Part shown: positions 2,081-23,755 of the stretch, in pieces
Position numbering within the stretch: the stretch's first letter is position 1
Layout: every line of letters starts with the position of its first letter
The notes under the pieces: model-generated
Seen by the model: only the letters and a program-made list of their open reading frames with translations
What the model was told of the DNA's origin: nothing
Databases searched by the model: none
From: a virus
IMG/VR virus record: IMGVR_UViG_3300030002_000109
Span: 1 to 24,033 of that record
Reading direction: 5' to 3' (one strand)
DNA length: 24,033 nucleotides
Program-made: the position numbers and the translations under genes

Positions 2081-2119
2081 AAACAGTAGGGGGTTTTGTC
2101 CTTTCTACTGTTTTTTTTT
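2081..2119 (+). terminator. hairpin plus T-tract, overlapping a promoter
   Basis: AAACAGTAG (2081-2089) pairs with CTACTGTTT (2105-2113) and is followed by T through 2119. The loop (2090-2104) contains the GTCCTTT element of the promoter, so termination and re-initiation signals are interleaved. Confidence 0.6.
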
Positions 2120-2132
2120 GCGGTTACTTTTG
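2098..2132 (+). promoter_or_regulatory. late-type phage promoter, copy 1
   Basis: GTCCTTT begins at 2098 and TACTTTTG (TAnnTTTG type) ends at 2132, exactly base 35 from the first G. The protease/scaffold ATG lies 21 bases after the last G. The same geometry recurs at six other places in the window. Confidence 0.75.
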
Positions 2133-2152
2133 CTTAAAATAATTTAAGAGTT

Positions 2153-3262
2153 ATGGCAAAAGACAAGGTTATTGAAATCATTGGTGGTATCAATGATTAT
2201 AATATTTCTAGAGATTATGTAAAATACATGCTTGATCAGGCTGGTGCCGGTCCTGTATTTATTGATTTTTCATCACTTGGTGGTGATGTGAATCAGGCGC
2301 TTCAGATAAAGAAATTTATTGCAGATCGAGGCGATGTGACACTTCGCTATTTTGGATTCAATGCTTCTTCTTCAACGGTTGTTGGTCATGGTGCTGTGAA
2401 AACTCAGATTTATGAGGATTCAATGTATTTAGTTCATAAACCATTGGTTGGTACTGATCCTACTTGGGGAAGTATGAACGAAGATCAAATTCAAGCAGCT
2501 ATTGATAGTCTTATTTCAAAGAAAAATGATGCTTCAGCAGCAACACTTATAATTGCGCAGGAATATGTAACTAACCGTAATCTGGAGATGAGCAAGGTTA
2601 TGGAACTTATTACGGCAGGTAATTGGATTACTGCTCAAAAAGCTGTAGAACTTGGTTTGGTAGATGAAGTAATCCCTTCTAGTTCCAAAAAATCAGCTGT
2701 TACAAACGAAGTTATCGCCATGATGACTGCTAATGGTTTTCCTGCAGTACCTGTTGAAAATTCTTCCGAAGAAGAAAAAGAAGAAACTCTCATTACAAAA
2801 ATTATCAATAAAATAAATTCATCAACCAAAACAAAACCTCAAATGACTAAAGATTATTCTTTTATCAATTCCGTACTCGGAATTGAAGGCGTTGAAGTTA
2901 AGGATGGAATGGTCTCTGTGACCGTTGAAAACATCCTGAAGCTGAACAACGAGATCAAAGCCAAAGGTGATGCTGTAACAACCTTAACTGCTGAAAGAGA
3001 CACAGCAGTTACCGACAAAGCTACCGCCGAAACTGCTCTGAATGATGCGACAAGTAAAATTGACGCCATTCACCCATCTGTAAAAGCTGCTACGACGCTA
3101 GAAGCTAAAGTGACTGCTATTAATGCAGAATTAGCCAAACGTCCGGCTGCTAAAGTTGAAAAACCTCATGGTAAAGAATCAGAATCAAATGTTGAAGATG
3201 CAGCTGATTGGGATACTATCGATAACCTTGAGCATAACAAAATTGCTGACAAAGAAATTTAA
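2153..3262 (+). CDS. ClpP-like prohead protease with C-terminal scaffold
   Basis: The protein has 369 residues. Residues 1-175 are an S14/ClpP-type serine protease: the GGDV oxyanion segment at 43-46, GFNASSS at 68-74 with Ser72 the likely nucleophile by alignment of spacing to ClpP, His95 in YLVHKP, and the AGNWITAQKAVELGLVDEV segment at 155-173 that follows the third catalytic position. Residues about 200-230 are an acidic/basic linker. Residues 231-369 are Ala/Thr/Lys/Glu-rich and probably coiled coil, typical of a scaffold fused to the maturation protease. It would shape the prohead and be cleaved during maturation. Met231 (ATG at 2843) could allow separate scaffold production. The gene lies directly upstream of the capsid gene and has its own late-type promoter. 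Confidence 0.88.
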   Translation: MAKDKVIEIIGGINDYNISRDYVKYMLDQAGAGPVFIDFSSLGGDVNQALQIKKFIADRGDVTLRYFGFNASSSTVVGHGAVKTQIYEDSMYLVHKPLVGTDPTWGSMNEDQIQAAIDSLISKKNDASAATLIIAQEYVTNRNLEMSKVMELITAGNWITAQKAVELGLVDEVIPSSSKKSAVTNEVIAMMTANGFPAVPVENSSEEEKEETLITKIINKINSSTKTKPQMTKDYSFINSVLGIEGVEVKDGMVSVTVENILKLNNEIKAKGDAVTTLTAERDTAVTDKATAETALNDATSKIDAIHPSVKAATTLEAKVTAINAELAKRPAAKVEKPHGKESESNVEDAADWDTIDNLEHNKIADKEI

Positions 3263-3282
3263 ACCTTTTTAAACTAATTATT

Positions 3283-4233
3283 ATGGCTATCGATAAAACA
3301 GCTATTATTACTGAGTACGGTGCTTATTATAAGGCCGGAAGCGAAAACGAAAAACGGTTAAAGAGACTGTTGTTGTTTGGTCGCGAAACTACCAAACTTG
3401 CTACTGAAATTAAAACAGATGATACTATCTACCAGATGGGTCAATCTGTAATTTCTTCATTGGTACAGAGTTTCCAAAAAGGGTTCACTCCTAAAGGAGA
3501 TGTCAAATTCACTCCAAATGAAATCCGATTATTTCACTTTAAAGTGGATTTGGAAATTTGGCCTGATGATATTTCAGATAGCTGGTTGGGATTTTTGGAA
3601 AGTAATTCACTTACTCGTAAAGAGTGGCCACTTATTCGTTACATCATGGAATCTCACTTCTATCAAAAAGTTGATGATGATATGGAACGTAGAGTATATT
3701 ACAAGGGTGTTTTTGTTGCTCCTACTACCGGAACTGCCGGCTTGACAGAGAACTCAATGAATGGCTTGAAGTATTATTTGCAACATAAATCAGTAAACCA
3801 TGTTACGATGGCTGCTTTAGATGCTTCAACCATTTATGATGATGTTGAAGGATTCTATGAATCAATTTCAGCGGAATACCAAGGTCAAAAAATGATTGTC
3901 GCTATGTCACCATCGTGGAAGCGCAAATTCTTGAAAGACAAACGCGCTTTGGGTTATTACCAAATAAAAGGAGCGAATGAAATTGATGATAGCATTGATT
4001 TCACGCCTTCAAATGTTATTGGCTTACCTTCTATGGAAGGAACGAATGACATCTGGGCAACTCCAGTCGGAAACTTCTTGCATATTACCAAAAAGGGTGA
4101 AAATTCTTCAAAAGTAAATATTGAAGAATCTAAACGTTGTTTGGCTATAATGACTGACTGGTACGAAGGCTTAGGCTTTGGTATTAATGAAACTGTTTGG
4201 ACTAACGTTGCCGCTGCAGCTCCTGTGTCATAA
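3283..4233 (+). CDS. major capsid protein
   Basis: The 316-residue protein is placed immediately after the protease/scaffold gene, the usual position of the HK97-fold capsid gene. It is mixed alpha/beta with an N-terminal charged region (ENEKRLKRLLLFG, about 21-33), a central MESHFYQKVDDDMERRVYYKG helix region (about 126-148), and a C-terminal domain with MIVAMSPSWKRKFLKDKRALGYY. No membrane segment or enzyme motif is visible. It shares the promoter at 2098-2132 with the protease. A 20-base gap and no terminator separate the two genes. The assignment rests mainly on gene order, size and general resemblance to Bacteroidota phage capsid proteins. Confidence 0.75.
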   Translation: MAIDKTAIITEYGAYYKAGSENEKRLKRLLLFGRETTKLATEIKTDDTIYQMGQSVISSLVQSFQKGFTPKGDVKFTPNEIRLFHFKVDLEIWPDDISDSWLGFLESNSLTRKEWPLIRYIMESHFYQKVDDDMERRVYYKGVFVAPTTGTAGLTENSMNGLKYYLQHKSVNHVTMAALDASTIYDDVEGFYESISAEYQGQKMIVAMSPSWKRKFLKDKRALGYYQIKGANEIDDSIDFTPSNVIGLPSMEGTNDIWATPVGNFLHITKKGENSSKVNIEESKRCLAIMTDWYEGLGFGINETVWTNVAAAAPVS

Positions 4234-4259
4234 GTGTAATCTATTAAAATTCATATATT

Positions 4260-4844
4260 ATGAGTAGAGTAAATTTAGAATCTATCGACCATAATTTGGA
4301 AGGTGGAAATATGTCAGGAATTGTTCCTCAGCTGATATACGGTTATTTGGAAGATGTGGCTGTATGGCCAACTGAACCGGCACCTACGGTTGCATTAGGA
4401 GTAACAACTCCGTTGACGTTGGCAGCTGCCGGCGCATTGGTTGGTGACGTGGTAATGAAAGCCGGTACCCGTGCTTTCACGTTGGACTTTACCGAAGATA
4501 CCGGTTTGTTCAAAATCAATGTTGTAGGCGAAAATGACGGTGGTCATTTTGAATATGACTTGACTATCATTAAGGCTAAGATCCGCAAAATAATTTTGGG
4601 CTTCCAAAATGCTTCTGTTGATCGTAAAATGTTCTTTATCGTTACTGACGAAAATAGCCAAACTTATTTGATGGGTAGCAAAACCCGTGGTTGTGGTTTA
4701 CAAACTGGTGGCGATGGAAATACAACCGGTACAACCGGAAGTGATCGTAATCAATCGTCACTGAGCTACAAGTTCAGAACTCGTAGAGCACTCGTTTACG
4801 AGGGAGATACCGAAGATCTGTTGACCTTAGTTCCGGTATCGTAA
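4260..4844 (+). CDS. phage structural protein (tail tube or capsid accessory)
   Basis: The protein has 194 residues and is beta-rich. It has an Ala/Val/Gly/Thr-rich segment (about 40-66), an IRKIILGFQ strand, and a Gly/Thr-rich turn followed by SDRNQSSLSYKFRTRRALVYEGD near the C-terminus. The last part resembles the end of tail-tube-like beta barrels, in which a conserved loop precedes the terminal strands. It is the last gene of the capsid operon and ends 20 bases before a perfect terminator. A major tail protein, a capsid decoration protein and a head-completion protein all fit. I favour a major virion component because it shares the capsid transcript. Confidence 0.6.
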   Translation: MSRVNLESIDHNLEGGNMSGIVPQLIYGYLEDVAVWPTEPAPTVALGVTTPLTLAAAGALVGDVVMKAGTRAFTLDFTEDTGLFKINVVGENDGGHFEYDLTIIKAKIRKIILGFQNASVDRKMFFIVTDENSQTYLMGSKTRGCGLQTGGDGNTTGTTGSDRNQSSLSYKFRTRRALVYEGDTEDLLTLVPVS

Positions 4845-4864
4845 ATGCCAAATTTAAAATTTGA

Positions 4865-4894
4865 AAGCCTCTCACAATTGTGAGAGGCTTTTTT
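4865..4894 (+). terminator. intrinsic terminator of capsid operon
   Basis: AAGCCTCTCAC (4865-4875), loop AATT, GTGAGAGGCTT (4880-4890), then T to 4894. The 11-bp stem is perfect. The T-tract abuts GTCC of the next promoter with no gap. Confidence 0.9.
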
Positions 4895-4929
4895 GTCCTT
4901 TTATCGCACGGAAAAACGCACGACTTTTG
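4895..4929 (+). promoter_or_regulatory. late-type phage promoter, copy 2 (packaging operon)
   Basis: GTCCTTTT starts at 4895 and GACTTTTG ends at 4929, base 35. Here TA of the -7 box is GA. The next in-frame ATG (4962) is 33 bases after the last G, which argues against the TTG at 4893 as a start, because that codon lies upstream of the promoter. Confidence 0.7.
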
Positions 4930-4961
4930 CGTATCATATTTATTCACCTAATTTTAAATGT

Positions 4962-5780
4962 ATGGATGTAAACACCACTGCCGGGGTAAGAGATGAAGTT
5001 ATTACCTGGGTAAACAGTAAATCAAAAGATCTTGATACCGGACTCAATCTAATGGAGAAATCCGGTTATAAACCTCATGTGTGTGCTAATTTCTTGAAAA
5101 ACAGAAATAGACAGGATATTCCTAAGAAACTGGAGGCTGAACTTCGCTTGTATCTTCGCTATTATGCCAACCCAACGGCTGACATACACAAAGATGAAGA
5201 ACTTGAAGTTGAAAAGGCTATAGCCGAAAAGATTCTTAGCAATATTGAAATCGAATTGGCTAAGGATTATCCGCCAATTATCAAGCAGTTGCTTCAGATT
5301 TATTCCGACTCGTACAAAGATCGCTCAATTGCTCATACCGATTTGAAAGATGTAGGTGAAGCCAACGACGAAGAATCGATGGATAAACGTAAATCTATTC
5401 TGTTGGTAATTGGATCAATGAGCTTGCGTCAGGAAGCATTGTGGAAAGCGTTTGAAGCTTACAGGGCTGATGGTACTCTTCCTGAAGAAGAATTATTGAC
5501 AGCTGTGTTTGTTGCAGGCGAAGAAATGAATACTACTGAAGCACCTAAGCAAAGTAAATTCAAATTGGCTGAAACATTGGAAGATTTGAAAAAACAATCT
5601 GATGGTTGGAGAATCAAAATTTCAAAAGCCGGTAACCGCTTGAATTTCCAATCGGAAAAGAAAGAGGACAAACCAAATCCAATGCCTGAAGGTCCGAAGC
5701 GCATAACCGTTGAAAAGCACATTGAACGGCTTACGGCTGAGAAACTTTTGATTGACACAGCTATTGCTAACATGAAATAA
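4962..5780 (+). CDS. hypothetical protein, first gene of packaging operon
   Basis: The protein has 272 residues and no family I recognise. It is strongly charged and mostly helical. An N-terminal domain (about 1-75) contains GYKPHVCANFLKNRNRQDIP, a central helical region spans about 85-185, and the tail is Lys/Glu-rich and probably disordered or coiled (about 210-272). The ATG at 4962 is chosen because the promoter box ends at 4929. The stop codon shares its last base with the start of the PLD-like gene (TAATG), indicating translational coupling. A role in virion assembly or packaging is suggested only by position. Confidence 0.75.
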   Translation: MDVNTTAGVRDEVITWVNSKSKDLDTGLNLMEKSGYKPHVCANFLKNRNRQDIPKKLEAELRLYLRYYANPTADIHKDEELEVEKAIAEKILSNIEIELAKDYPPIIKQLLQIYSDSYKDRSIAHTDLKDVGEANDEESMDKRKSILLVIGSMSLRQEALWKAFEAYRADGTLPEEELLTAVFVAGEEMNTTEAPKQSKFKLAETLEDLKKQSDGWRIKISKAGNRLNFQSEKKEDKPNPMPEGPKRITVEKHIERLTAEKLLIDTAIANMK

Positions 5781-6361
5781 TGCTGGTTAAACACGTAAAA
5801 ATAGAGTTAAACGCAAATCAGAAAACTGATACTGCAAAGCAACCCGAAGCCATTGAAGCTTCGGGTGCTTCTCTTTATTTTTCGAGCGAAACAAGTTTGG
5901 TAACAAAACACCTGGGCACAATTACTCCGGGACAAGATAAGCATTATTGGAGCTTTGGAAACTTCAACATGATGAGGCTTATCTTTTGGGTATTGGAACA
6001 AACGGGACCGGCTGATATTATCCTGAGCACTTATTCAATCAGTCCAAAAACAATTCAGGGAGTCATTAACCGGAGAGAAAAAGGATTAATACGAAATATT
6101 CGTTTCCTGATCGATAATCGTGTTCGGTCATTATCTCCCAAGCCGTTCGACATGCTTGTAGCTAATTTTGATTATCGCTGCATATCCATTCACGCCAAAG
6201 TAGCGTGTATATGCAACGATAACTGGAATATAACTATAGTTAGCAGTCAGAACGCTACCGATAACCCGAAAATGGAACGAGGAACGATTTATACCGGTAT
6301 TGATATTTTTAATTTCGACAAAAAAGTATTGGAAAATGCATTTATCAGAGGAACAACTTAG
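5780..6361 (+). CDS. phospholipase D-like (HKD-type) protein
   Basis: The protein has 193 residues. The C-terminal half carries one HKD-like signature: IHAK with His138 and Lys140, an Asp at 147 (slightly displaced from the usual spacing), then IVSSQNAT (153-160), matching the GS/SS-x-N part of the PLD fold. An ADIILSTYSIS strand (78-88) fits the first half of a PLD domain. Single-HKD proteins can dimerise and act as nucleases or phosphodiesterases. In a packaging operon a DNA-directed role is conceivable. The start overlaps the previous stop by one base, and the end overlaps the next gene by 26 bases. The displaced Asp leaves catalytic activity uncertain. Confidence 0.65.
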   Translation: MLVKHVKIELNANQKTDTAKQPEAIEASGASLYFSSETSLVTKHLGTITPGQDKHYWSFGNFNMMRLIFWVLEQTGPADIILSTYSISPKTIQGVINRREKGLIRNIRFLIDNRVRSLSPKPFDMLVANFDYRCISIHAKVACICNDNWNITIVSSQNATDNPKMERGTIYTGIDIFNFDKKVLENAFIRGTT

Positions 6362-6611
6362 TGGAGTGGAAGAAATGGCTTACCGATGCTTCAGTCCGGA
6401 ACTCACAGCCATTAATATAGAGGTTGACGAAATAGAGTTTTGCGAGGCCGTAAGTATTCCAGGTACTGAAGAAAGAAAAGCCTACTACAAAGGCTTTATC
6501 CGGCAACAGACTGAGCTTTGCGAATCTATTATAAAATCAGCCGGCAATGGAAGCAATCCGGCACAACAACAATTATTATCACTTATTCAAATTCTAGCCT
6601 CAAGCTTATGA
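6336..6611 (+). CDS. small HTH-like phage protein
   Basis: The protein has 91 residues. The ATG at 6336 (MHLSEEQLSGVEEMAYRCFSP) lies inside the end of the PLD-like gene. The pattern of an initial helix, FSPELTAINIEVDEIEFCEAV (about 19-39), then AYYKGFIRQQTELCESIIKSA, resembles small Bacteroidota phage proteins with a terminase-small-subunit-like helix-turn-helix, as recalled rather than searched. It could help recognise phage DNA for packaging. Its stop overlaps the next start as ATGA, so it is tightly coupled to the glycosyltransferase-like gene. Confidence 0.65.
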   Translation: MHLSEEQLSGVEEMAYRCFSPELTAINIEVDEIEFCEAVSIPGTEERKAYYKGFIRQQTELCESIIKSAGNGSNPAQQQLLSLIQILASSL

Positions 6612-7348
6612 AATTACCCAAAATAGTAATGGTTATTCCCTGTTGGGAACGTGTTGAAGTATTTAGCCTGGTATGCAAACAGCTCGATATTTTTGCCGAA
6701 AAGACGAAAGAAATAATTGATTTCAGAGTAGTGTATGTGTTCAGCGAAAATGATCCTGAATTATTTGAATTGAAATATGCTTACTTGACCAGTAACCATC
6801 AAAGGCACCATATTTTCTCCGATAACGAATTACTGGGGCAAAAATTGAATGACGGAATTACTTATGCTCAGGTATACGAATATGACTACCTGATGAACTT
6901 TGGTAGCGATGATTTGATTCACGAAAGTATTATTGATCTATATATGCCATTTATCAATGCTAGGACTGCAATTTTCGGAATCAATAAACTTTATTTTCTC
7001 CAAAAGAATGAAGATCCTTTGTTTTTCTCAAGCTATAATGTGCCGTATGTAATTGGTGCCGGTAGAATGATTCACCGTTCGGTTGTGCAATATGTGATTT
7101 TCAAACATGGAGCACTTTATTTACCTGAAATAAACAGAGGTATGGACACCATGTCGGCCAAACGAATGGAAGAATGTGGATATAAACAACGGGTTATAGA
7201 TCCCGGAGAATTTCCGATGATTGTCGACATTAAGTCAGAAATCAATATAAATAGCTTTGAATCTATCTCTACGCATAAATCAAGGGTGAAAACGTGCGAT
7301 ATTTCGATACTTGAAAACGAATTTGAACTACTAAAAACGTACAAATGA
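6608..7348 (+). CDS. glycosyltransferase-like (GT-A type) protein
   Basis: The protein has 246 residues. The ATG at 6608 forms an ATGA overlap with the preceding stop and opens with KIVMVIPCWERVEVF, the first beta strand of a GT-A nucleotide-sugar domain. DYLMNFGSDDLI (93-104) supplies a DxD-like SDD at 100-102 that would bind a metal and nucleotide sugar. RGMDTMSAKRMEECGY (177-192) resembles the acceptor-side segment of GT2-like enzymes. No membrane helix is visible, so it is probably cytoplasmic. Acceptors could be capsid, tail, modified DNA or host glycan. It is unusual between packaging genes and overlaps both neighbours (ATGA on each side). Confidence 0.7.
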   Translation: MKLPKIVMVIPCWERVEVFSLVCKQLDIFAEKTKEIIDFRVVYVFSENDPELFELKYAYLTSNHQRHHIFSDNELLGQKLNDGITYAQVYEYDYLMNFGSDDLIHESIIDLYMPFINARTAIFGINKLYFLQKNEDPLFFSSYNVPYVIGAGRMIHRSVVQYVIFKHGALYLPEINRGMDTMSAKRMEECGYKQRVIDPGEFPMIVDIKSEININSFESISTHKSRVKTCDISILENEFELLKTYK

Positions 7349-7947
7349 AATCGATTGATCAACCAAAGTATCAAACTAAAAAGTCATTGGCTGAGCAAGA
7401 ACATGGACTTATTTTGGCTCATATTCTGGATCCGGACGAATCACCGCTTCCGGAAGAATGCAAGGATAAATTCAACCGTGTTATTTCTGCTGCTAAAATG
7501 CTGGATAGTTATCATCCAAGCAATGTTATTCCACGGTTACTTGCAAAGTATAATATAAATTTGAGCACGGCTAAAAAGGATATACAGCTCGCTCAGGAAC
7601 TTTTCAAGTCAAAACATACATTCGACTGGGATTACTGGCAACAATGGCAAATAAAGGATTTGGTTGATACAATCCACACTTGTAAATTGCTTGGAAAACA
7701 TAAGGAACGTATTGCAGCTCAAAAAGTGCTTCGTGAAGTTATTGGCGAAAAAACTGTTGGAGCGGAAGATCCTAAACGTATGGAGAAATCGACATTCAAT
7801 ATACAATTGAATGATAATAAAACGATTGTAAATCTAGATCTTAGTCAACTTAAAGGACTTACTCCAGCCGATATACATGTAATTGTAAGTGCTATAATTG
7901 CACCAAATGAAACAGATGATCAAGTTATAGAAATTTTAAACACATAA
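7345..7947 (+). CDS. putative terminase small subunit
   Basis: The protein has 200 residues. The start forms an ATGA overlap with the glycosyltransferase-like gene. A likely helix-turn-helix is SNVIPRLLAKYNINLSTAKK (about 59-78), followed by a long helical middle and a C-terminal segment FNIQLNDNKTIVNLDLSQLKGL that could mediate oligomerisation or contact with the large subunit. The assignment rests on this pattern and on the position one small gene upstream of the large terminase. It would bind the packaging site and load the large subunit. I recognise no diagnostic motif. Confidence 0.55.
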   Translation: MKSIDQPKYQTKKSLAEQEHGLILAHILDPDESPLPEECKDKFNRVISAAKMLDSYHPSNVIPRLLAKYNINLSTAKKDIQLAQELFKSKHTFDWDYWQQWQIKDLVDTIHTCKLLGKHKERIAAQKVLREVIGEKTVGAEDPKRMEKSTFNIQLNDNKTIVNLDLSQLKGLTPADIHVIVSAIIAPNETDDQVIEILNT

Positions 7948-7950
7948 ATT

Positions 7951-8082
7951 ATGGTAACAGAAAAACAAGTAACTAGAATTGTAAAATTCGCTTTTTTATT
8001 AGCTCCTATTGGTTTTGTAATGTCTTTTATATGGATATTTAAAGGAATTGTTTGGTTGATTACTCATGTTCACATTGGATAA
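7951..8082 (+). CDS. 43-residue single-pass membrane protein between the terminase genes
   Basis: ATG at 7951 and TAA at 8080-8082. The sequence begins MVTEKQVTRIVKF and then has a hydrophobic stretch (about 13-40) with aromatic residues. It starts 3 bases after the small-terminase stop, and its own stop shares a base with the large-terminase ATG (TAATG), so it looks translationally coupled rather than accidental. No family is recognised. A membrane effect, a holin-like role or simply a coupling peptide are all possible. Confidence 0.5.
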   Translation: MVTEKQVTRIVKFAFLLAPIGFVMSFIWIFKGIVWLITHVHIG

Positions 8083-9809: not shown

Positions 9810-9936
9810 TAATCGCACAACCAAATCATTTCGATGTGCTCAAGCACAGTCATTACACATTCACTATCCCTCGGATCCGGGGATAGTGAAAGAGTAATGT
9901 GCGATTATCATTCATCATTCGTGCGCTCATGATGAA
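9810..9936. repeat. nested inverted repeats after terL
   Basis: An outer pair, TAATCGCACA (9810-9819) and TGTGCGATTA (9898-9907), is perfect. An inner 20-base pair lies at 9851-9870 and 9880-9899 with two mismatches around a CGGATCCG centre. The two structures overlap by two bases, so they may be alternatives. A further perfect 8-bp hairpin pairs TTCATCAT (9911-9918) with ATGATGAA (9929-9936). There is no T-run after the large stem. It may terminate the packaging operon or mark a junction where the cargo cassette entered. Confidence 0.65.
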
Positions 9937-9938
9937 GA

Positions 9939-10366: not shown

Positions 10367-10369
10367 TAT

Positions 10370-10881: not shown

Positions 10882-11286
10882 ATGGAAACTACATCAAATA
10901 CGCAAACAAAACCAAAGCTTTACATTAAACGGAAACCAACCGAAAAGCAATTGGAAGCCATCAGGGCAAAACGTGACGAACTGAAATTGTTATCAATAGG
11001 AATTAAAGCACTTGTAAAAGAGGGTAAATACAATACGATTAACGAGGGATTAATTGAACTATATGCCGAAGCTGGGTACACGAATTTAAAAACCCTACAC
11101 CAATGGAATGAAATTAATATGAGCGTAAAGAAAGGCGAACACGCATTGTTATTGTGGGGAAGCCCGAAGAAAGAGGATAAGAAAGAAGAAACAACCGTTT
11201 CGGAAGATGGAGAAAAGAAAGAAACGTTTTACCCGCTTTGTTTTGTGTTCTCAGAAAATCAGGTACAACCAATGGTAGCAAGGTAA
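10882..11286 (+). CDS. small ArdC N-terminal-like protein
   Basis: The protein has 134 residues. Residues about 66-97 (YTNLKTLHQWNEI, SVKKGEHALLLWGSPKK) match the core of the ArdC N-terminal domain: a 'Trp, then KKGE.A..LW.P' arrangement that binds single-stranded DNA in antirestriction and primase-associated proteins. FYPLCFVFSENQVQP (116-130) fits the last strand. The metallopeptidase domain of full-length ArdC is absent. A charged Lys/Glu insertion (96-115) and a basic N-terminus are present. The stop overlaps the SymE-like start (TAATG). A DNA-binding or anti-defence role is inferred, with moderate confidence in the fold. Confidence 0.65.
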   Translation: METTSNTQTKPKLYIKRKPTEKQLEAIRAKRDELKLLSIGIKALVKEGKYNTINEGLIELYAEAGYTNLKTLHQWNEINMSVKKGEHALLLWGSPKKEDKKEETTVSEDGEKKETFYPLCFVFSENQVQPMVAR

Positions 11287-11525
11287 TGGAAAAGTTGTTA
11301 ACAGTGTGTAGAGCCACACAGGGGAATAAATATACATCTGCTATCAACATAAAAGGAGAGTATTTGAAAAAGTTTGGTTTTGAGTTGGGCGATTTTGTTA
11401 AGGTAGAAATCTGCAAACATAAAATTGTCATACAAAAAAATGTTAATACCGAGCTTTTAAATGCTATGGGAGCAAAGAACCCAGCACTTTTGACTATGAT
11501 AGAAAATTTAGGAATGACAGTATAA
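11286..11525 (+). CDS. SymE/AbrB-like small protein
   Basis: The protein has 79 residues. SAINIKGEYLKKFGFELGDFVKVEICKHKIVIQ (18-50) has the 'L.G.WL...GF..G..V.V....I.I' pattern of the SymE group, whose fold resembles AbrB/MazE swapped-hairpin DNA-binding antitoxins. E. coli SymE is an SOS-induced, RNA-regulated toxin. A shared fold does not prove that activity here. The ATG at 11286 shares a base with the ArdC-like stop. The C-terminal helix (51-79) is outside the core motif. It could be a toxin, antitoxin or transcription regulator carried as cargo. Confidence 0.65.
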   Translation: MEKLLTVCRATQGNKYTSAINIKGEYLKKFGFELGDFVKVEICKHKIVIQKNVNTELLNAMGAKNPALLTMIENLGMTV

Positions 11526-11674: not shown

Positions 11675-11707
11675 AGCATCGGACTGTGAAGTTCGGTGCT
11701 TTTTTTT
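11675..11707 (+). terminator. intrinsic terminator with GTGA loop
   Basis: AGCATCGGACT (11675-11685), loop GTGA, AGTTCGGTGCT (11690-11700), T to 11707. The 11-bp stem has two G-U pairs. The T-tract abuts the GTCC of the next promoter. Confidence 0.85.
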
Positions 11708-11742
11708 GTCCTTTTCCTAGCCTGTATTCCTTTTTAATTTTG
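11708..11742 (+). promoter_or_regulatory. late-type phage promoter, copy 3
   Basis: GTCCTTTTCC starts at 11708 and TAATTTTG ends at 11742, base 35. The ATG of the next gene is 21 bases further on. Confidence 0.75.
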
Positions 11743-13118: not shown

Positions 13119-14483
13119 ATGGATATATTATTTAACGACAAAGGAACTCCGCTTATTATGACTTCGAAGCGAGTGTTCGCTTCTACTACCGGAGCTCCTA
13201 AAGGTATTACTGCCGATGAAAAAAAGGCATTGATTCAGACGGTTGATACTAAATTGGATCAGGATTTTTTGGCGTTGACAGGAATACGCCTATTGGCTTG
13301 GAACTCAAATAATGATTTTCCGCAATGGGCTGACAAGATAATTACTTCTACCAGCGTGTTGAATTCGGGCTTAAAGTTCATTCGTAACTTCACCATTGGT
13401 CAAGGTGTGTACGCCTGTAGAGTTACCGGCTATGATGCTGACGGTAACGAAATACTTGAAGCATATCCGGATCCAATTCCACAACAGATTGTTTCATCTC
13501 CTACAACCAGGCGTTATTTTGAATTAGCCGGTCGTGATTATTTTAAATTCGGATGCTCAGGCGTTCAGCTAGTACCTAATGCTGACGGGTCTCAAATTGT
13601 AGGTCTGAACGTACTCAATGCTTATTATCTTCGCCTGAGTGAGCGTGATGCCAATGGGTTGGAAAAATGTGTCGTTTCCGGAAAATTCCCGGATAATCCT
13701 GGTACTGGTGATTTCACCGTATACGATGTGTTATTGGATTACGATCCAATCCTTGACATGGACATTCGCCGTGCGGAAGGTAAAGGCAAAGAAAGTGCAA
13801 TATTCATGATTCGCGATAGCTGGAGTAATCGCGACACCTATTCAGAACCTATATGGCTATCAGCTTATTTGGCCGGATGGATTGATATTGCAAAGTCAGT
13901 ACCGAAATATCTAAATAAAGCCTATAAAAATCAGGTAACTAATAAATTACATATTCAAATACCATACTCTTTTTGGGATAAGAAATTTCCTGAATCTGAA
14001 TTTGAGGAAAAGGCAGATAGAGAAGCTGCTATTGGCATGTATATGGATGATATTGAAACTAATTTATTAGGCGCTGAGAATGCCGAAAAACCATTATTCA
14101 CTCATTATTCTACCAGCGATACTAATGGTAAGATTGAAGATGGTTGGATAATTACAAGGGTTGATGGTGCCGGTAAAGATGCTGACAAACTTGTTACCAG
14201 TGCAGCTGCTAATTCAGAGATCCTTTTTGCTTTAATGATTAACCCGAACGTACTTGGTGCCGGGATGCCTGGTGGTACTTATGCCGGTAATCAGGGAGGT
14301 AGCAATATCCGTGAAGCCTTTTTAGTAAATATTGCCAACGCGTGGGTAGATCGTCAGAACTTTTTGGATCCGCTTGAAATTCGCCTACGATATAACGGTT
14401 ATACCGATGTTGTACTACGCTACCGCAATACCATACTTACCACGCTCGACAAGGGTAGTGGTACTCAGAAGAATTTAGCTTGA
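13119..14483 (+). CDS. portal protein
   Basis: The protein has 454 residues. The portal forms the dodecameric ring at the head vertex through which DNA is packaged and ejected. The most telling segment is NPNVLGAGMPGGTYAGNQGGSNIREAF (starting at residue 375), the Gly-rich 'GGS..RE' loop after a helical segment that is typical of portals. An N-terminal 'WADKIITSTSVLNSGLKFIRNF' (about 71-92) and a helical wing with WLSAYLAGWIDIAKSVPKYLNKAYKNQ (about 248-274) also fit. It lies downstream of terL and the capsid genes rather than between them, an uncommon order. A terminator follows 38 bases after its stop. Confidence 0.78.
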   Translation: MDILFNDKGTPLIMTSKRVFASTTGAPKGITADEKKALIQTVDTKLDQDFLALTGIRLLAWNSNNDFPQWADKIITSTSVLNSGLKFIRNFTIGQGVYACRVTGYDADGNEILEAYPDPIPQQIVSSPTTRRYFELAGRDYFKFGCSGVQLVPNADGSQIVGLNVLNAYYLRLSERDANGLEKCVVSGKFPDNPGTGDFTVYDVLLDYDPILDMDIRRAEGKGKESAIFMIRDSWSNRDTYSEPIWLSAYLAGWIDIAKSVPKYLNKAYKNQVTNKLHIQIPYSFWDKKFPESEFEEKADREAAIGMYMDDIETNLLGAENAEKPLFTHYSTSDTNGKIEDGWIITRVDGAGKDADKLVTSAAANSEILFALMINPNVLGAGMPGGTYAGNQGGSNIREAFLVNIANAWVDRQNFLDPLEIRLRYNGYTDVVLRYRNTILTTLDKGSGTQKNLA

Positions 14484-15463: not shown

Positions 15464-15466
15464 GTT

Positions 15467-16289: not shown

Positions 16290-16339
16290 AGGGGAATAAA
16301 TCACCTCACCCCCTGCCCCCTCTCCTTAAGGCGAGGGGG
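16274..16339. repeat. REP-like intergenic repeat
   Basis: AACCCCTAACCCCTAAAGGGG is followed by a C-rich stretch (CACCTCACCCCCTGCC) and the CCCCCTCTCC..GGCGAGGGGG hairpin. This C-rich/G-rich type is, from memory, frequent between genes in Bacteroidota genomes. It has been co-opted here as gene end and terminator. Confidence 0.5.
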
Positions 16340-16345
16340 TTTTTT
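16316..16345 (+). terminator. intrinsic terminator
   Basis: CCCCCTCTCC (16316-16325), loop TTAA, GGCGAGGGGG (16330-16339), T to 16345. The stem is 10 bp with one mismatch. GTCC of the next promoter begins 3 bases later. Confidence 0.85.
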
Positions 16346-16347
16346 AT

Positions 16348-16382
16348 GTCCTTTTCCTGCCCTCACATAACTTATAAATTTG
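16348..16382 (+). promoter_or_regulatory. late-type phage promoter, copy 4
   Basis: GTCCTTTTCC starts at 16348 and TAAATTTG ends at 16382, base 35. The ATG is 21 bases later. Bases 16376-16394 are identical to 23749-23767 in copy 7. Confidence 0.78.
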
Positions 16383-16402
16383 TACAATCAAAATTATAAG
16401 TT

Positions 16403-17353
16403 ATGATATTCTCAGCACAAAAATGGAACAATGCTTCCGAAATTCAGCCGTATATAAGTGTAGCTGCCAGCTTATCGTTTGCCACTATGGAAGCGCCTCT
16501 CCGCAATGCTTTCGAAATGTTTTTGCGTTCGCTCCTGGGCGATGCGCTGATAACCGATATTGAAACATATTACGCAGATTCGGAGGCTACTCCCAAACAA
16601 AAGCGATTACTCCAGCTTGCACAGCGTGCCAATGCGTTGTTATCGCTTTGGTATGATTACGACGAGCTTCAGGTTGAAATAAGTGACTCAGGTGCTAAGC
16701 GTCAGGAATCAGACAAGGTTAAAACACCCTATAAGTACCAGGAACAATCACTAAAAAAAGGGTGGAAAGAAAAAGGCTTCAATGCCTTGGATGATCTCTT
16801 ATCTTATCTTGAGGCTGAAAAAGCCACTTTTACTCATTATACTTCCAGCTCTAAAAAAACGGAAATAGTGCGTAGTGCTGCCGAAATAGATCAATTTTAC
16901 TATATCAACGGTAGCCGGATTATTTTTCTTCGCCTGCAGTCACACTTCCGCAATGTGGTAAATACCATTGTTGCTCCACGGTTGGGAGATATCTATGCCA
17001 ATTATTTGACAGAAATTGTCAAAGATACTCCTGATGCTAAGTATGTGAAACTTCGTGGAGCATTGCTTCCGGTAGTGGTTTTTTATGCCGTTGCCCGCCT
17101 GATCCGCGAAACAGGTAGCCTGACAGATAAAGGTTTGTTTTTCGAAACATTGAAAAATTCCGACGATGCCGTGAACACGTCACCGGTTACCGATGAACGT
17201 GTAGTTTCTCAAGCGAAACTAGCTGAATCGGATGCAATAGCCTATTGGGCAATCGTTGAAAAATTACTCAAGACAGATTTTGCCTACACCGGACCATCGG
17301 TTAGTAAAATTCCAAAGCGTGATAATAACGATAAAAAATCTTTTTGGGGATGA
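16403..17353 (+). CDS. phage head-tail connector-type protein (DUF6712-like?)
   Basis: The protein has 316 residues. It is mainly helical, with an N-terminal MEAPLRNAFEMFLRSLLGDAL, a middle QEQSLKKGWKEKGFNALDDLLSYLEAEKATF, and a C-terminal helical region with QAKLAESDAIAYWAIVEKLL. The length and pattern recall a Bacteroidota phage family labelled DUF6712. This is recollection, not a search. It begins a new late operon and overlaps the next gene as ATGA. A neck or head-completion role is inferred from context. Confidence 0.6.
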   Translation: MIFSAQKWNNASEIQPYISVAASLSFATMEAPLRNAFEMFLRSLLGDALITDIETYYADSEATPKQKRLLQLAQRANALLSLWYDYDELQVEISDSGAKRQESDKVKTPYKYQEQSLKKGWKEKGFNALDDLLSYLEAEKATFTHYTSSSKKTEIVRSAAEIDQFYYINGSRIIFLRLQSHFRNVVNTIVAPRLGDIYANYLTEIVKDTPDAKYVKLRGALLPVVVFYAVARLIRETGSLTDKGLFFETLKNSDDAVNTSPVTDERVVSQAKLAESDAIAYWAIVEKLLKTDFAYTGPSVSKIPKRDNNDKKSFWG

Positions 17354-18138
17354 AAACACTGAAAGTTATAGACCACCGGTACTTTTTCTTTTTCGATAAA
17401 ACCATCGAACTTCAGGTACCTGAACGATGGGAAGATCTGAACGATAATCAGTTTACCGTATGTGCCGGCATTTATGTGGACCCACTTTCGGATATTGACT
17501 TTATAAGTCAGTATTTTGGTATAGATAAGCGTGTTGTGAAGCAAATTAGCAAGTTTGAACAATACAAACTTACTGAATTGGCCAGTTTCGTGGTGAAGCC
17601 AACCGGTACAGTGAATTTCTTTTACATTGATCAAATACCAGGAACAAAATTACTCTCTCCCGGACAAAAACTCCGTGGAGTTACGTTTGAGCATTTTGCA
17701 CTATTCGATACCTATTTTTTCGACTATGTAAATGATCCTACCGAAGCTAATCTTCGCACGTTTGTAGCTGCCGTTTACCTCAAAAAAGGGGATAGGATAA
17801 CCGATATCGATTTTGAAAAACATGTCAACTTATTTGCACGAAAAGTGGATAAAATGACATTATATGCCATTTTTCTAAACTACGTATTTCTTCGCGACTG
17901 GCTTTCGAAAGCATTTCCATCCCTATTTCAAAAATCAGACTCAAAAGAGGACGATGAAGATGACAGGAAAATAAAACCACAGAAAAAACCGAGTAGACCC
18001 GATTGGAACTCAATGCTCGATGGAGTTGTGGGAGAAAACATACTGGAATATGACAGTTACAAGGCTTTGCCTTGCATACAGTTATTCAAATTAATGAATA
18101 AACACATCAAAGAATTCAAACGTAATGGCCGAAAATAA
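17350..18138 (+). CDS. hypothetical tail-assembly-type phage protein
   Basis: The protein has 262 residues. The ATG at 17350 gives an ATGA overlap with the preceding stop. A TTG two codons upstream is less likely. The N-terminus is beta-rich (VIDHRYFFFFDKTIELQVPERWEDL). The middle is helical, with NLFARKVDKMTLYAIFLNYVFLRDWLSKAFP. A highly charged linker (SKEDDEDDRKIKPQKKPSRP, about 197-216) precedes the last helical piece. The architecture is like a tail-assembly chaperone or accessory, but no diagnostic motif is seen. It overlaps the next gene by 14 bases. Confidence 0.6.
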   Translation: MKTLKVIDHRYFFFFDKTIELQVPERWEDLNDNQFTVCAGIYVDPLSDIDFISQYFGIDKRVVKQISKFEQYKLTELASFVVKPTGTVNFFYIDQIPGTKLLSPGQKLRGVTFEHFALFDTYFFDYVNDPTEANLRTFVAAVYLKKGDRITDIDFEKHVNLFARKVDKMTLYAIFLNYVFLRDWLSKAFPSLFQKSDSKEDDEDDRKIKPQKKPSRPDWNSMLDGVVGENILEYDSYKALPCIQLFKLMNKHIKEFKRNGRK

Positions 18139-18655
18139 CGCATTATCAGACTTTACCACTTATATCTGTAACCTATGTAGAGCGCATGTGGAACTCAAGC
18201 ATACTTCATCGAGTAAGCACTTTATTGAGCTTAATTCCAACGAACAAATGGAGAATCAGCGACAGGCAGTTTATCCGCTTGTGGCCATGGAAAAACTTAC
18301 GGTAAGTTATACCGGACTCAATGACGCCGTTCGTAAAAGTCGCTACTGCGAAATCATGTTTTTGAATAAGGTAACAAGTAATGGAGATTTCGCAGCAGTT
18401 CAGGCTGTTAAAGATGCTATGGAAGCAATAGCAGAGGATTTTTTGAAGAAGATGAAGATAGATAAGCGTAGCCGATTATATCCATTCCTTAAGTGCCTGG
18501 AACTATCCAATATCGAATTGAATTTTATCGAAAATGAATCTATAAACCTACATGGCGTTCTATTGTCGTTGAATTTCGATCTTCCATTTATCGAAACATT
18601 GGAAGCTGGACGCTTTGATGATACTGTCCTTTTTCCACCTGTACCAGAAAGCTAA
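18125..18655 (+). CDS. hypothetical phage structural/connector protein
   Basis: The protein has 176 residues and starts inside the end of the previous gene. It is mixed alpha/beta, with AVYPLVAMEKLTVSYTG, a helix AVQAVKDAMEAIAEDFLKKMKID and a C-terminal LHGVLLSLNFDLPFIETLEAGRFDD. The shape is compatible with tail-completion or terminator proteins, but this is a guess from size and position before the tail fibre. The last codons (GTC CTT TTT CCA) double as the GTCCTTTT element of the promoter for the fibre gene, so coding and promoter functions overlap. Confidence 0.6.
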   Translation: MAENNALSDFTTYICNLCRAHVELKHTSSSKHFIELNSNEQMENQRQAVYPLVAMEKLTVSYTGLNDAVRKSRYCEIMFLNKVTSNGDFAAVQAVKDAMEAIAEDFLKKMKIDKRSRLYPFLKCLELSNIELNFIENESINLHGVLLSLNFDLPFIETLEAGRFDDTVLFPPVPES

Positions 18656-18660
18656 TTTTG
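18626..18660 (+). promoter_or_regulatory. late-type phage promoter, copy 5, inside a coding end
   Basis: GTCCTTTTTCC starts at 18626 within the preceding gene, and TAATTTTG ends at 18660, base 35, using that gene's stop codon as part of the -7 box. The tail-fibre ATG is 20 bases later. Confidence 0.78.
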
Positions 18661-18679
18661 TAACAAAATAATAATTATT

Positions 18680-21382: not shown

Positions 21383-21420
21383 AATAATTTTATTCAATAA
21401 ACTATTTATAATAATTCCCC

Positions 21421-21900
21421 ATGAACCCATACATTTATATTAAATCCATTTTTTATACCATTTCAGGTTGGTTTTCGGCGATATTACTATATTTTTTGCC
21501 TATCAAAGATCTTGTTCATGCATTGGCTATAATGTTTGCTATAAATTTTGTATTGGGAATTTTAGCAGGTATATTAGTTCAGGGCGAAAAAGTTGATTTT
21601 AAAAAAGCATTATTAGCATTTGCCGAAATTGCACTGTACTTGGTAATACTTACCTGTGTATTTAATTTAGGTGAGAAAATGAAAGGAAGTGACTGGATTT
21701 TTGCTATGCTTATTTGGTTGACTTGGGCTTGGCATTATTTCTATGTTTCGAATATTCTCAAAAATATGACTCGTTTACTCCCAAATAGTAAAGGTTTACG
21801 CTTTGCCTATTATATTTTAGGTTTAGAATTTATAAAACGTATTCCCGGATTAAGAGGTTTCGAACGAAAAGAAAAATTATCTAAATCACCATGTAAATAA
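21421..21900 (+). CDS. phage holin
   Basis: This 159-residue membrane protein has four hydrophobic segments (about 8-28, 33-54, 66-83, 91-110) and a basic C-terminal tail (RIPGLRGFERKEKLSK). Placement directly before a second small membrane protein and the M15 endolysin supports a holin that forms membrane lesions to release or activate the lysin. It resembles the 'phage holin family' proteins of Bacteroidota. No promoter of the late type is seen upstream (21383-21420 is AT-rich), so it is probably read from the fibre promoter. Confidence 0.75.
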   Translation: MNPYIYIKSIFYTISGWFSAILLYFLPIKDLVHALAIMFAINFVLGILAGILVQGEKVDFKKALLAFAEIALYLVILTCVFNLGEKMKGSDWIFAMLIWLTWAWHYFYVSNILKNMTRLLPNSKGLRFAYYILGLEFIKRIPGLRGFERKEKLSKSPCK

Positions 21901-21907
21901 TCATAAT

Positions 21908-22147
21908 ATGAAAAAACCAACTCTATTTCAACGCCTAAAAGCAGCATTTAAGGCAGAAACGCCAGTATTTGCTCGTTTCTTTCAAACTTTATCAGTTGGA
22001 GTGGCTGCATTGCCACTGTATTACTCGGGTTTAGATCCCGAAATTAAAGCTGTTATTCCAAAAGATTACCTACTTACTATTGCGGTGGTAGGTGGAATTT
22101 TGATTGTTATTTGTCAGTTTTTTGAAAAGAAAGGAGGCGCAAAATGA
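21908..22147 (+). CDS. small membrane protein of the lysis module
   Basis: The protein has 79 residues. A basic amphipathic start (MKKPTLFQRLKAAFKAE) is followed by two hydrophobic segments (about 24-40 and 53-71) and a charged end (FFEKKGGAK). It begins 7 bases after the holin stop and overlaps the endolysin start as ATGA. A second holin, an antiholin or a lysis accessory would fit. The sequence alone does not decide. Confidence 0.65.
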   Translation: MKKPTLFQRLKAAFKAETPVFARFFQTLSVGVAALPLYYSGLDPEIKAVIPKDYLLTIAVVGGILIVICQFFEKKGGAK

Positions 22148-22599
22148 GCAAAATAGACACCCTTCACCCGCTTATTCGCGAAGAAGTAAGACAATTAGTT
22201 GATAAAATCAACACCTCAGTTTTGACAAGTAATGTCAAAATGGTAGTTACATGTGGTCTACGCACGTTTGACGAACAAAATGCCCTGTACGCACAAAAAC
22301 CGAAAGTAACCAACGCTAAAGGCGGTCAGAGCCTGCATAATTACGGCTTTGCATTCGATTTTTGTTTGGCCGTAGGCGGCAAAACTATCTGGGATGTGGC
22401 CAAAGATTTCGATGGTGACAAAGTTCCGGACTGGATGGAAGTGGTAAAAGTTTTCAAAGCTGCCGGATATACCTGGGGCGGAGATTTCCGAAGCATTACC
22501 GACCGTCCACACTTCGAAAAAACGTTTGGCCATACATGGCAACAACTATTAGTAATTAAACAAGCCGGCAAAACCGAAAACGGTTATGTCATAATATAA
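22144..22599 (+). CDS. endolysin, M15-type peptidase
   Basis: This 151-residue enzyme cleaves peptidoglycan peptides. It shows the zinc D-Ala-D-Ala peptidase/L-Ala-D-Glu endopeptidase pattern: GLRTFDEQNALYAQ (38-51), SLHNYGFAFDF with His65 and Asp72 as zinc ligands, and WGGDFRSITDRPHFE (111-125) with the catalytic acid near Asp120 and the third ligand His123. Length fits phage M15 lysins. No signal peptide is present, consistent with dependence on a holin. The start is in an ATGA overlap with the small membrane gene. Confidence 0.88.
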   Translation: MSKIDTLHPLIREEVRQLVDKINTSVLTSNVKMVVTCGLRTFDEQNALYAQKPKVTNAKGGQSLHNYGFAFDFCLAVGGKTIWDVAKDFDGDKVPDWMEVVKVFKAAGYTWGGDFRSITDRPHFEKTFGHTWQQLLVIKQAGKTENGYVII

Positions 22600-22604
22600 T
22601 TATC

Positions 22605-23213
22605 ATGAAAATACCAACACATAAATTACTCGCATTGCTCATTTTATTTGTTTTTGTAGCCTGTTCTACAGTTAAGAAAACAACCACTTCCAACATAAAG
22701 GAAGTGGTGAAATCTGATACTGAAGTATCGAAAAATACGGAAGCAAAACAAACTTCAAATTTTACGGACAAATCAAATATTGTGGAGTCGAAAACGATTG
22801 CTCAAGCGGATCTGGATTCTTCGGAATGTGATACAAGGATAATTGACTACGATACCAATAAACCAATTGTAGACGGCACAGGAAAGCCCCCTGTATTGCG
22901 TGAAACGGTTATTAGTAACAGAAAACACGTTAAAAAACTTGCCACAATCACAGATAAGAAGGATGAGCAAAAAAATGTACAATCAAACTATACAATGTTG
23001 CTCAAAAGCAACATTGATAGTATGCAACACATAAATACTTCACTTATAAGTAAAACTGAAACCAAGGAAACCCCAGTACCTAATAACTGGTTGAAATGGT
23101 TATTATCTGGAATAGTTATTTGTTTGGCGGTTGGTCTATTTTTGAAATTTAAAGGATTGAATTTAGTGTCCTTTATTTGGAAGTTTATCAGGAGTATTTT
23201 TGTATCGAAATAA
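22605..23213 (+). CDS. candidate unimolecular spanin (lipoprotein with C-terminal TM)
   Basis: The protein has 202 residues. The N-terminus is a lipoprotein signal (hydrophobic 8-19, lipobox ending VAC with Cys20). A long hydrophilic, Ser/Thr/Lys/Glu-rich periplasmic region follows (21-160). A single C-terminal membrane helix (about 162-182) is followed by basic residues. An outer-membrane lipid anchor plus an inner-membrane helix is the topology of unimolecular spanins such as phage T1 gp11, which fuse the two membranes at the end of lysis. It directly follows the endolysin. Its last codons contain a late-type promoter. A perfect 9-bp hairpin lies in the coding region (22683-22691 with 22700-22708). 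Confidence 0.68.
   Translation: MKIPTHKLLALLILFVFVACSTVKKTTTSNIKEVVKSDTEVSKNTEAKQTSNFTDKSNIVESKTIAQADLDSSECDTRIIDYDTNKPIVDGTGKPPVLRETVISNRKHVKKLATITDKKDEQKNVQSNYTMLLKSNIDSMQHINTSLISKTETKETPVPNNWLKWLLSGIVICLAVGLFLKFKGLNLVSFIWKFIRSIFVSK
23168..23202 (+). promoter_or_regulatory. late-type phage promoter, copy 6, inside a coding end
   Basis: GTCCTTTA starts at 23168 and TATTTTTG ends at 23202, base 35, all within the 3' end of the spanin-like gene. The next ATG (23248) is 46 bases later, a longer leader than for the other copies. Confidence 0.65.
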
Positions 23214-23247
23214 AACAATTATTATTAATAACTAAAATTAAATTCTT

Positions 23248-23652
23248 ATGAAAAGATTGATTTTTCTTTTAATTGCATTCGCCTGCGGTTTAACTACTGT
23301 GATTGCTTCTGATGTAGGTTCTAAGCCTACTCTACAATTACCAACGTCCGTGATTACGCAAATCACAGCCATGCCGGTACTTAATGCTGTTTGTTTTGAA
23401 ATGACTCCGGTCATTTATCAAGCTTCAGGAGTAACTCTGGTGAATAAGTATCAAATGGTAGGTAAAACGTTTATGCCGGTTGCAATTCTGCATTTAGATC
23501 CTGGCATATACATACAGGTGTCGGTAAATAAATTTAATCTACAAAACAGAACCTCAAACAATAGTTATACGCCATATTCGATGCTAAACAACTATGAACT
23601 ATTAACTGTCAACTATGAATTGAATTTACCTACTGCTCGACATGTTTCGTAA
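23248..23652 (+). CDS. secreted hypothetical protein, C-terminus possibly repeat-derived
   Basis: The protein has 134 residues. Residues 1-20 are a signal peptide (MKRLIFLLIAFACGLTTVIA) with probable cleavage before SDV. The mature protein is beta-rich and hydrophobic, with no recognised motif. The last ~20 residues (LNNYELLTVNYELNLP) are encoded by AACTATGAACTATTAACTGTCAACTATGAA, a quasi-repeat of AACTATGAA/AACTGTCAA units like common Bacteroidota intergenic DNA, so the native end may be lost. It is flanked by a late-type promoter and a strong terminator as a single-gene unit. Confidence 0.65.
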   Translation: MKRLIFLLIAFACGLTTVIASDVGSKPTLQLPTSVITQITAMPVLNAVCFEMTPVIYQASGVTLVNKYQMVGKTFMPVAILHLDPGIYIQVSVNKFNLQNRTSNNSYTPYSMLNNYELLTVNYELNLPTARHVS

Positions 23653-23678
23653 TTTGTATTTTTAAATGGTTTTTTTCA

Positions 23679-23710
23679 AACGCCCGGTCTGTGAAGATCG
23701 GGCGTTTTTT
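23679..23710 (+). terminator. intrinsic terminator with GTGA loop
   Basis: AACGCCCGGTCT (23679-23690), loop GTGA, AGATCGGGCGTT (23695-23706), T to 23710. The 12-bp stem has one G-U pair. Confidence 0.9.
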
Positions 23711-23720
23711 GTAGAAATAT

Positions 23721-23755
23721 GTCCTTTTACTATGCTGCGTTATTGCCGAAATTTG
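23721..23755 (+). promoter_or_regulatory. late-type phage promoter, copy 7
   Basis: GTCCTTTTAC starts at 23721 and GAAATTTG ends at 23755, base 35. The ATG is 21 bases later. A 19-base stretch (23749-23767) is identical to the one in copy 4. Confidence 0.72.

Follow-up and report, generated by a model that had tools for sequence, protein, structure and literature searches.

At the middle promoters of phage T4, where MotA and AsiA appropriate the host sigma factor, a phage box replaces the -35 contact and the host -10 box is kept. In the Bacteroidota, promoters of the primary sigma factor are reported to carry TAnnTTTG at -7 and TTG or TTTG near -33 (PMC7366714, PMC9723704), with the TAnnTTTG box of Flavobacterium psychrophilum sigma-A placed at -12 to -5 (PMC9723704). 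At the mom promoter of phage Mu, the C site is described as overlapping the -35 element (PMC4461284), and accounts of phages phiEco32 and 7-11 describe a sigma-like factor and phage-specific promoters. For Bacteroidales phages, our open-access literature searches found no described late-gene switch. Here, we analyzed a 24,033-base stretch of DNA that constitutes the entire virus record IMGVR_UViG_3300030002_000109 (the window), in which a box containing GTCCTTT recurs at a fixed distance from a host-like TAnnTTTG box ahead of late genes, together with OrfA, our candidate for the activator that would read it.

A motif of fixed geometry ahead of late genes

GTCCTTT occurs nine times in the window, seven times on the plus strand (2098, 4895, 11708, 16348, 18626, 23168, and 23721) and twice on the minus strand. 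As the sequence-only reading had claimed, TTTG ends at base 35 in all seven plus-strand copies, against a mean of 0.05 and a maximum of 1 in 100 dinucleotide shuffles; neither minus-strand copy has TTTG ending there. The host-like box takes the two forms given for it, TAnnTTTG in five copies and GAnnTTTG in two (4895 and 23721). A T precedes GTCC in all seven plus-strand copies and, across 12 records, at every one of 47 distinct strict sites; the box is therefore TGTCCTTT, the extra upstream T having been missed earlier. The intervening bases, about 20 in number and said to be unconserved, are indeed poorly conserved across these 47 sites. The last G stands 21 bases from the nearest ATG in four copies, 20 in one, and 46 in one; at 4895 the nearest ATG is 29 bases away and the in-frame start of a 272-residue gene is 33 bases away, the latter being the distance originally listed. 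The seven predicted late promoters and the genes that follow them are given below (ORF, open reading frame).

2097 to 2132, plus strand: late promoter 1, TGTCCTTT-N20-TACTTTTG; the ATG of a ClpP-type head protease gene (2153) is 21 bases on
4894 to 4929, plus strand: late promoter 2, TGTCCTTT-N20-GACTTTTG; 33 bases before the 272-residue gene (4962-5780), itself ahead of packaging genes
11707 to 11742, plus strand: late promoter 3, TGTCCTTT-N20-TAATTTTG; ahead of 11763 and of a gene at 13119 in the portal position (putative label)
16347 to 16382, plus strand: late promoter 4, TGTCCTTT-N20-TAAATTTG; ahead of a conserved 316-residue gene at 16403 (putative adaptor position)
18625 to 18660, plus strand: late promoter 5, TGTCCTTT-N20-TAATTTTG; overlaps the 3′ end of ORF 18125-18655, with a gene for a 900-residue protein (18680) next
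23167 to 23202, plus strand: late promoter 6, TGTCCTTT-N20-TATTTTTG; ORF 23248 is 46 bases on, and an M15-type lysis gene lies upstream
23720 to 23755, plus strand: late promoter 7, TGTCCTTT-N20-GAAATTTG; an ATG (23776) is 21 bases on

The genes downstream look late (protease, terminase, portal-position, and lysis-adjacent), in keeping with the view that all copies precede virion, packaging, or post-lysis genes. Among the packaging genes, the one at 8052 encodes the terminase large subunit, as judged by tblastn against annotated terminases, and the 900-residue protein has a GDSL-like domain whose Pfam match is slightly below the cut-off. In G008, a near-identical longer twin of the window (41,969 bases), the gene next after that of promoter 7 encodes a 1362-residue, tape-measure-sized protein; the portal and tape-measure labels are drawn from size, gene order, and profile matches.

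Given the -12 to -5 placement of TAnnTTTG described for F. psychrophilum, TGTCCTTT would cover the -33 element, spanning about -40 to -33. In the window, none of the five late boxes of TAnnTTTG form has a TTG 19 to 21 bases upstream, which agrees with the proposal that the phage box takes the place of the usual -33 TTG. The sequence-only reading assigned host-type promoters to the cargo genes; the one TAnnTTTG seen ahead of a cargo ORF (10359) likewise lacks a TTG at the normal gap. The sites thus resemble Bacteroidota sigma-A promoters in their -7 box (TAnnTTTG or GAnnTTTG) but differ from them in having an 8-base box at a fixed distance and no TTG at the usual gap. Retaining the host -7 box and exchanging the -33 element is, we infer, how promoters that depend on an activator or on sigma appropriation are laid out. 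The window also has what characterizes activator-dependent phage late promoters, namely, several late operons that share a box whose position, in or beside the -35/-33 region, is fixed. The arrangement is like that of T4 MotA/AsiA promoters in that a phage box stands in place of the -35 contact and the host box is retained, but the box sequence differs. It is like that of the Mu late promoters in that one phage activator, C in Mu and a proposed one here, would serve several of them; in contrast, the spacing here is rigid and the -7 box is near consensus.

The spacer of promoter 2 (4894-4961 region) contains a CGCACG-N5-CGCACG direct repeat with an 11-base period. Several relatives conserve both the repeat and the operon's leader, TTCACCTAATTTTAAA, which suggests an additional control of that operon.

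Distribution of the motif in relatives, hosts, and named phages

Among viral contigs with a relative of the terminase, the strict motif was present in 10 of 10 records, several of which overlap or repeat one another, with 34 occurrences in all, whereas the reversed pattern had 2. The exact motif was also found in 15 of 21 further records with capsid and portal relatives (21 loci of the 44 found, that is, 19/40 plus 2/4, some of the others lying within the terminase set). The six without an exact match were G023-G028, with variant boxes in G024-G028; a one-mismatch search of these 21 loci was noisy, since controls matched too. We then counted spacings from 20 to 60 bases with a relaxed pattern, GTCC[TC][TA]...TT[TC]G, in 28 records that include G008, with N letters stripped from some records and with the near-duplicate or overlapping G012, G016, G017, G022, G024, G032, and G035 and the short L loci omitted. 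On the late strand, 104 box-to-TTYG pairs were spaced by 35 bases and 11 by 36, with 0 to 8 pairs at every other distance, whereas the opposite strand gave 6 pairs at 35, within a flat range of 1-12. The enrichment in related phages that the sequence-only reading had called for was thus obtained both in the terminase set and in the counts pooled by strand, with sites in relatives being partly inherited and hence non-independent. In 25 of the 28 records (all except Leef_1, 6H, and laban6-1), 102 distinct sites had the 35-base spacing, and a T stood before GTCC in 94 of them, compared with 81 of 238 off-distance copies. An ORF ATG lay no more than 40 bases away in 87 of these 102 sites and none lay within 130 bases in 7, and 41 had a T-rich 5′ flank.

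Across the 47 strict sites, the first base of the -7 box was T in 70% and G in 30%, the search pattern admitting only these two letters there and likewise fixing the other box letters, and the fourth base was always A or T. The spacing is kept in diverged types in which the box itself varies, as TGTCCTAT in diverged Prevotella and Dysgonomonas types and as TGTCCCAC/T (TGTCCCA type) in diverged rumen types; at times such variant boxes are spaced 36 rather than 35. Weaker than this headline result, a 6-mer screen ranked the box top outright in 10 of 24 records, and GTCCT was not among the leading 5-mers in Porphyromonas gingivalis phages.

Five of the seven window boxes lie inside, or at most 15 bases from, a terminator-like hairpin.

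2081 to 2113, plus strand: terminator-like hairpin that holds the box of late promoter 1 (z -5.2)
4863 to 4892, plus strand: terminator-like hairpin that adjoins late promoter 2 (z -7.6)
11675 to 11700, plus strand: terminator-like hairpin 7 bases ahead of late promoter 3 (z -4.9)
16318 to 16339, plus strand: terminator-like hairpin 8 bases ahead of late promoter 4 (z -3.5)
23680 to 23705, plus strand: terminator-like hairpin 15 bases ahead of late promoter 7 (z -5.7)

By eye, the box-inside-hairpin layout of promoter 1 recurs before the protease in several relatives. This proximity would suit an RNA-level or other DNA element (a processing site, antiterminator loop, packaging signal, or replication signal) standing by chance beside terminators. 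However, no terminator was seen at boxes 18626 and 23168, the distance to a promoter -7 box is fixed, and most of the 102 sites have an ORF start nearby, which makes an explanation of this kind extremely improbable.

Motif-bearing prophages were found in Dysgonomonas sp. PH5-45, a Paludibacter metagenome-assembled genome (MAG), the MAG Bacteroidetes bacterium GWC2_46_850, and Draconibacterium aestuarii. In seven whole host genomes, the TA form gave 18 exact matches, 13 of them on prophage-bearing contigs; the remaining 5 are on three other contigs of one MAG, G034. No portal or OrfA relative was found on these contigs (C119, C191, and C248), and their boxes perhaps belong to other phages. No exact TA-form match was found in G036 and G037. 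One-mismatch counts exceeded the reversed-pattern control in G034 (26 versus 19), G036 (14 versus 5), and G037 (12 versus 3) and were equal to it or lower in the other four genomes. As for the phage itself, the remainder of G008 encodes an integrase-like protein and a repressor-like helix-turn-helix protein, followed by an early region with a primase-like protein (labels by eye, those of integrase and primase backed by profile matches); the phage looks temperate.

In the named phages, TGTCCTTT-N24-TTYG occurred in 9 of 20 records, on a single strand in each and with no reversed-pattern match: MT835542 (3 sites), Ingeline_1 (2), MZ447863 (4), Bacteroides phage BT-TP2 (3), and five P. gingivalis phages (3 each). 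The latter are all five sampled of one type, drawn from 18 P. gingivalis records with an OrfA relative. The 11 non-carriers were Leef_1, 6H, laban6-1, four other P. gingivalis phages, crAss001, B124-14, B40-8, and p00, so that none of the eight unrelated Bacteroidales phages carried the motif. One P. gingivalis strain, ATCC 49417, is recorded as the host of a carrier (019a) and a non-carrier (005a) alike. In Leef_1, 6H, and laban6-1, which have few TAnnTTTG sites ahead of genes, a fixed-distance 5-mer search for an alternative box returned none clearly above the opposite strand. The relaxed pattern detected no box before a gene in G011, L141, L142, L144-L146, L148, L149, L155, L061, L067, L163-L167, L169, and L170, many of which are fragments, yet exact sites are present in G011 and strict-spacing sites in L148 and L149, and inspection by eye showed one in L163.

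These distributions bear on whether the host enzyme alone could use the sites as variant sigma-A promoters, with TGTCCTTT as an alternative -33 or UP-like element. The host-type -7 box, the T-rich flanks, and the one-mismatch excess in G034, G036, and G037 would be compatible with such use. In contrast, the other four genomes showed no excess, exact matches off prophage contigs were confined to G034, unrelated Bacteroidales phages lacked the motif, and unregulated late expression would be unlikely in a temperate phage; overall, we consider this improbable. Taken together, these results leave us practically certain that the motif is real, that it is old, and that it is linked to late genes. Transcription would start at these sites, and it is quite likely that they form a late promoter class that uses host sigma A with a phage activator. 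The sequence-only reading had proposed such a class, with a phage activator or altered sigma use, and it is supported by the enrichment in relatives, the absence of a -33 TTG, and a partial correlation with a regulator described below.

OrfA as candidate activator

Two overlapping genes lie directly ahead of promoter 1 in the window and ahead of the protease in relatives.

1033 to 1599, plus strand: OrfA, 188 residues, lies at the early/late boundary and is the candidate late activator
1580 to 2056, plus strand: OrfB, 158 residues, overlaps OrfA and is predicted to be beta-rich

OrfB was dropped as a regulator. Because its model (predicted local distance difference test score, pLDDT, of 80) is beta-rich and its nearest, weak matches are baseplate, tail-tube, and tail-completion proteins (best E 1.3e-3, template modeling score about 0.3-0.4), it is probably structural.

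The AF2 model of OrfA has a mean pLDDT of 84. In a further difference from the T4 system, no solved relative was found by sequence search (E 0.32 or worse) or Foldseek (E 1.3 or worse), and the best VIA match had a Z of 3.5 and a root mean square deviation of 2.4 over 62 aligned residues; a distant relative may escape such searches. The MotA fold was not among the Foldseek or VIA matches listed. No Pfam, PHROGs, or NCBIfam family was matched at curated cut-offs, the best weak matches being Pfam PMM (E 0.005) and PHROGs phrog_36431 (E 0.0069). There was also no match to Pfam Mor/C at E 0.1, a threshold that remote similarity could escape. The sole BFVD match below E 0.001 was A0A8E5EBJ1 of Polaribacter phage Leef_1 (E 1.8e-5), and none of the libraries searched contains a described relative of the OrfA family. 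Two boxes at a fixed spacing could also be recognized by a phage-encoded alternative sigma factor, and phage-specific promoters are a likeness to phiEco32 and 7-11 as described. However, the -7 box here keeps the host consensus and no Pfam or NCBIfam sigma domain was found in OrfA, with most early proteins outside the Pfam scan; we consider a phage sigma factor very improbable.

OrfA lies one gene upstream of the head protease in the relatives of the window, in BT-TP2, and in four P. gingivalis phages viewed whole. In BT-TP2 and the viewed motif-carrying P. gingivalis phages, this position is held by a 156-162-residue protein, and that of BT-TP2, gp8, was annotated by its depositors as a transcriptional regulator. 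In MZ447863, the OrfA relative is beside the primase, about 10 kb from OrfB and apart from the structural genes. In 18 of 18 records, representing about 14 lineages, the sequence ahead of OrfA (up to 700 bases) contained no GTC-type box (G030 offered a shorter sequence, and the start is uncertain in G027).

Two side observations concern these loci. Directly upstream of OrfA in the window (651-957), a cluster of TGTAGGTCG and CGACCTACA repeats, direct and inverted, is iteron-like and is possibly a replication origin or an OrfA control region. MZ447863.1 (L176) is a named Microcystis phage, yet it has the late box (extended form ACACGCTGTCCTTTT) and the OrfA and OrfB relatives of Bacteroidales phages; its host assignment would merit checking.

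Correlation of a regulator with the motif, as anticipated by the sequence-only reading, held in part. Of the nine named carriers, MZ447863 has an OrfA match by a window-type profile, seven (MT835542, BT-TP2, and the five P. gingivalis phages) have one by tblastn with the MT835542 protein, and Ingeline_1 has a match that is weak and syntenic only (E 0.0021). The motif was absent from all eight named records without any OrfA match. Profiles of G008 genes were compared with eleven other phages: terminase, portal, and 316-residue relatives were present in all nine phages of the wider group, three of which are motif-free, and were missing from Pg005a and Pg013a. Among early genes, only a tyrosine integrase was found in all nine; it was not retained as an activator candidate because its profile also matches the non-carrier Pg005a. 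Iterated searches of 29 records found OrfA in 21 by one seed (many being seed members) and in BT-TP2 by the other, and no other non-structural, non-integrase family as widespread was found. OrfA had no match in the motif-carrying fragments G004, G016, G029, and G031; G004, G016, and G031 start at or past the protease, and G029 is also without terminase and capsid end.

The same promoter class and host sigma could be served by another early activator, such as a 118-residue protein (G008 34331-34687) or a 129-residue protein beside the primase. In the iterated searches, the 129-residue family was found in 9 records (plus two weak partial matches) and the 118-residue family in 10, all carriers, the latter being absent from the motif-free Leef_1, 6H, and laban6-1, where OrfA matches occur. 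However, the 118-residue family went undetected in carriers G011, G020, G025-G028, G038, MZ447863, and Ingeline_1, a short protein being one that may escape detection, and we regard such an activator as unlikely.

Several observations weigh against OrfA. The links between the two branches of its family are weak. The MT835542 protein, through which the BT-TP2 and P. gingivalis relatives were reached, was first detected weakly (E 7.7e-5, best domain 0.062), and hhalign of the two OrfA branches gave E 0.0021 and a probability of 13%, collinear over 128 columns. The A3-seed iterated search from the first branch did not reach BT-TP2, and the OrfA profile of the gene-profile screen reached only MZ447863, Leef_1, and laban6-1 among the eleven other phages, missing MT835542, BT-TP2, and the P. 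gingivalis phages. Matches of the A5 profile hold by construction because A5 was built from those proteins. The two branches are bridged by a two-sequence Leef_1/MZ447863 set (E 1.2e-13 and 5.2e-5), and the iterated search begun with the first branch recovered MT835542 (0.0012) as well as 35-38 residues of two P. gingivalis OrfA loci (6.5e-8 and 4e-5). Furthermore, the AF2 model matched no solved DNA-binding protein by Foldseek or VIA. Distant OrfA matches occur without the motif in Leef_1, 6H, and laban6-1, and our patterns detected no box in OrfA-bearing fragments (L141, L142, L144-L146, L155, L164-L167, L169, and L170) or in MT835875; such relatives may have a different box, be fragments missing the box, or have another OrfA role. 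In L143, a 36-base variant box lies directly upstream of OrfA. In G035:C23:151013-151528, OrfA is cut short at 162 residues, a TGA falling within the aligned range, and the late boxes are kept; G021 and G022 are alike. Finally, co-occurrence partly reflects common descent because all motif carriers share a related virion module. On balance, position, co-occurrence, and elimination make OrfA the best single choice of activator, with a probability that we place slightly above even.

Other genes of the region and the proposed late switch

Inside the late region, an Endonuclease-family gene (5780-6361; PHROGs 16945) is patchy among relatives. A cassette at 10882-11525 encodes two proteins with laban6-1 relatives, one of them anti-restriction-like (PHROGs 7245) and the other SymE-like (Pfam PF08845, slightly below the cut-off).

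In the switch that we propose, the host RNA polymerase and primary sigma factor would still read the -7 box ([T/G]AnnTTTG), and the host -33 TTG contact would be replaced by TGTCCTTT at about -40 to -33. A phage-made activator would read TGTCCTTT and either bridge to the polymerase or re-aim sigma. OrfA, made at the end of the early region independently of the late box, would then turn on several late operons together, most of them separated from the preceding one by a terminator. As a complete explanation, with late promoters, a host sigma -7 box, TGTCCTTT replacing the -33 contact, and OrfA as the most likely activator, this is modestly favored.

More tentatively, and with a probability a little short of even, OrfA may found a new family of transcription activators that re-aims the Bacteroidota sigma-A polymerase to TGTCC at -40 to -33, the activator and its box (TGTCCTTT, TGTCCTAT, TGTCCCA) having co-diverged throughout a deep temperate-phage lineage whose hosts are Bacteroides, Porphyromonas, Prevotella, Paludibacter, and Dysgonomonas. 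We know of no earlier late switch of Bacteroidales phages, and OrfA and its box, if true, would be the first. The motif allows the late operons of such phages to be read from sequence and names a testable activator, which could yield an activator/promoter pair for Bacteroides genetics and offers a route to how a phage takes over the unusual primary sigma factor of this phylum.

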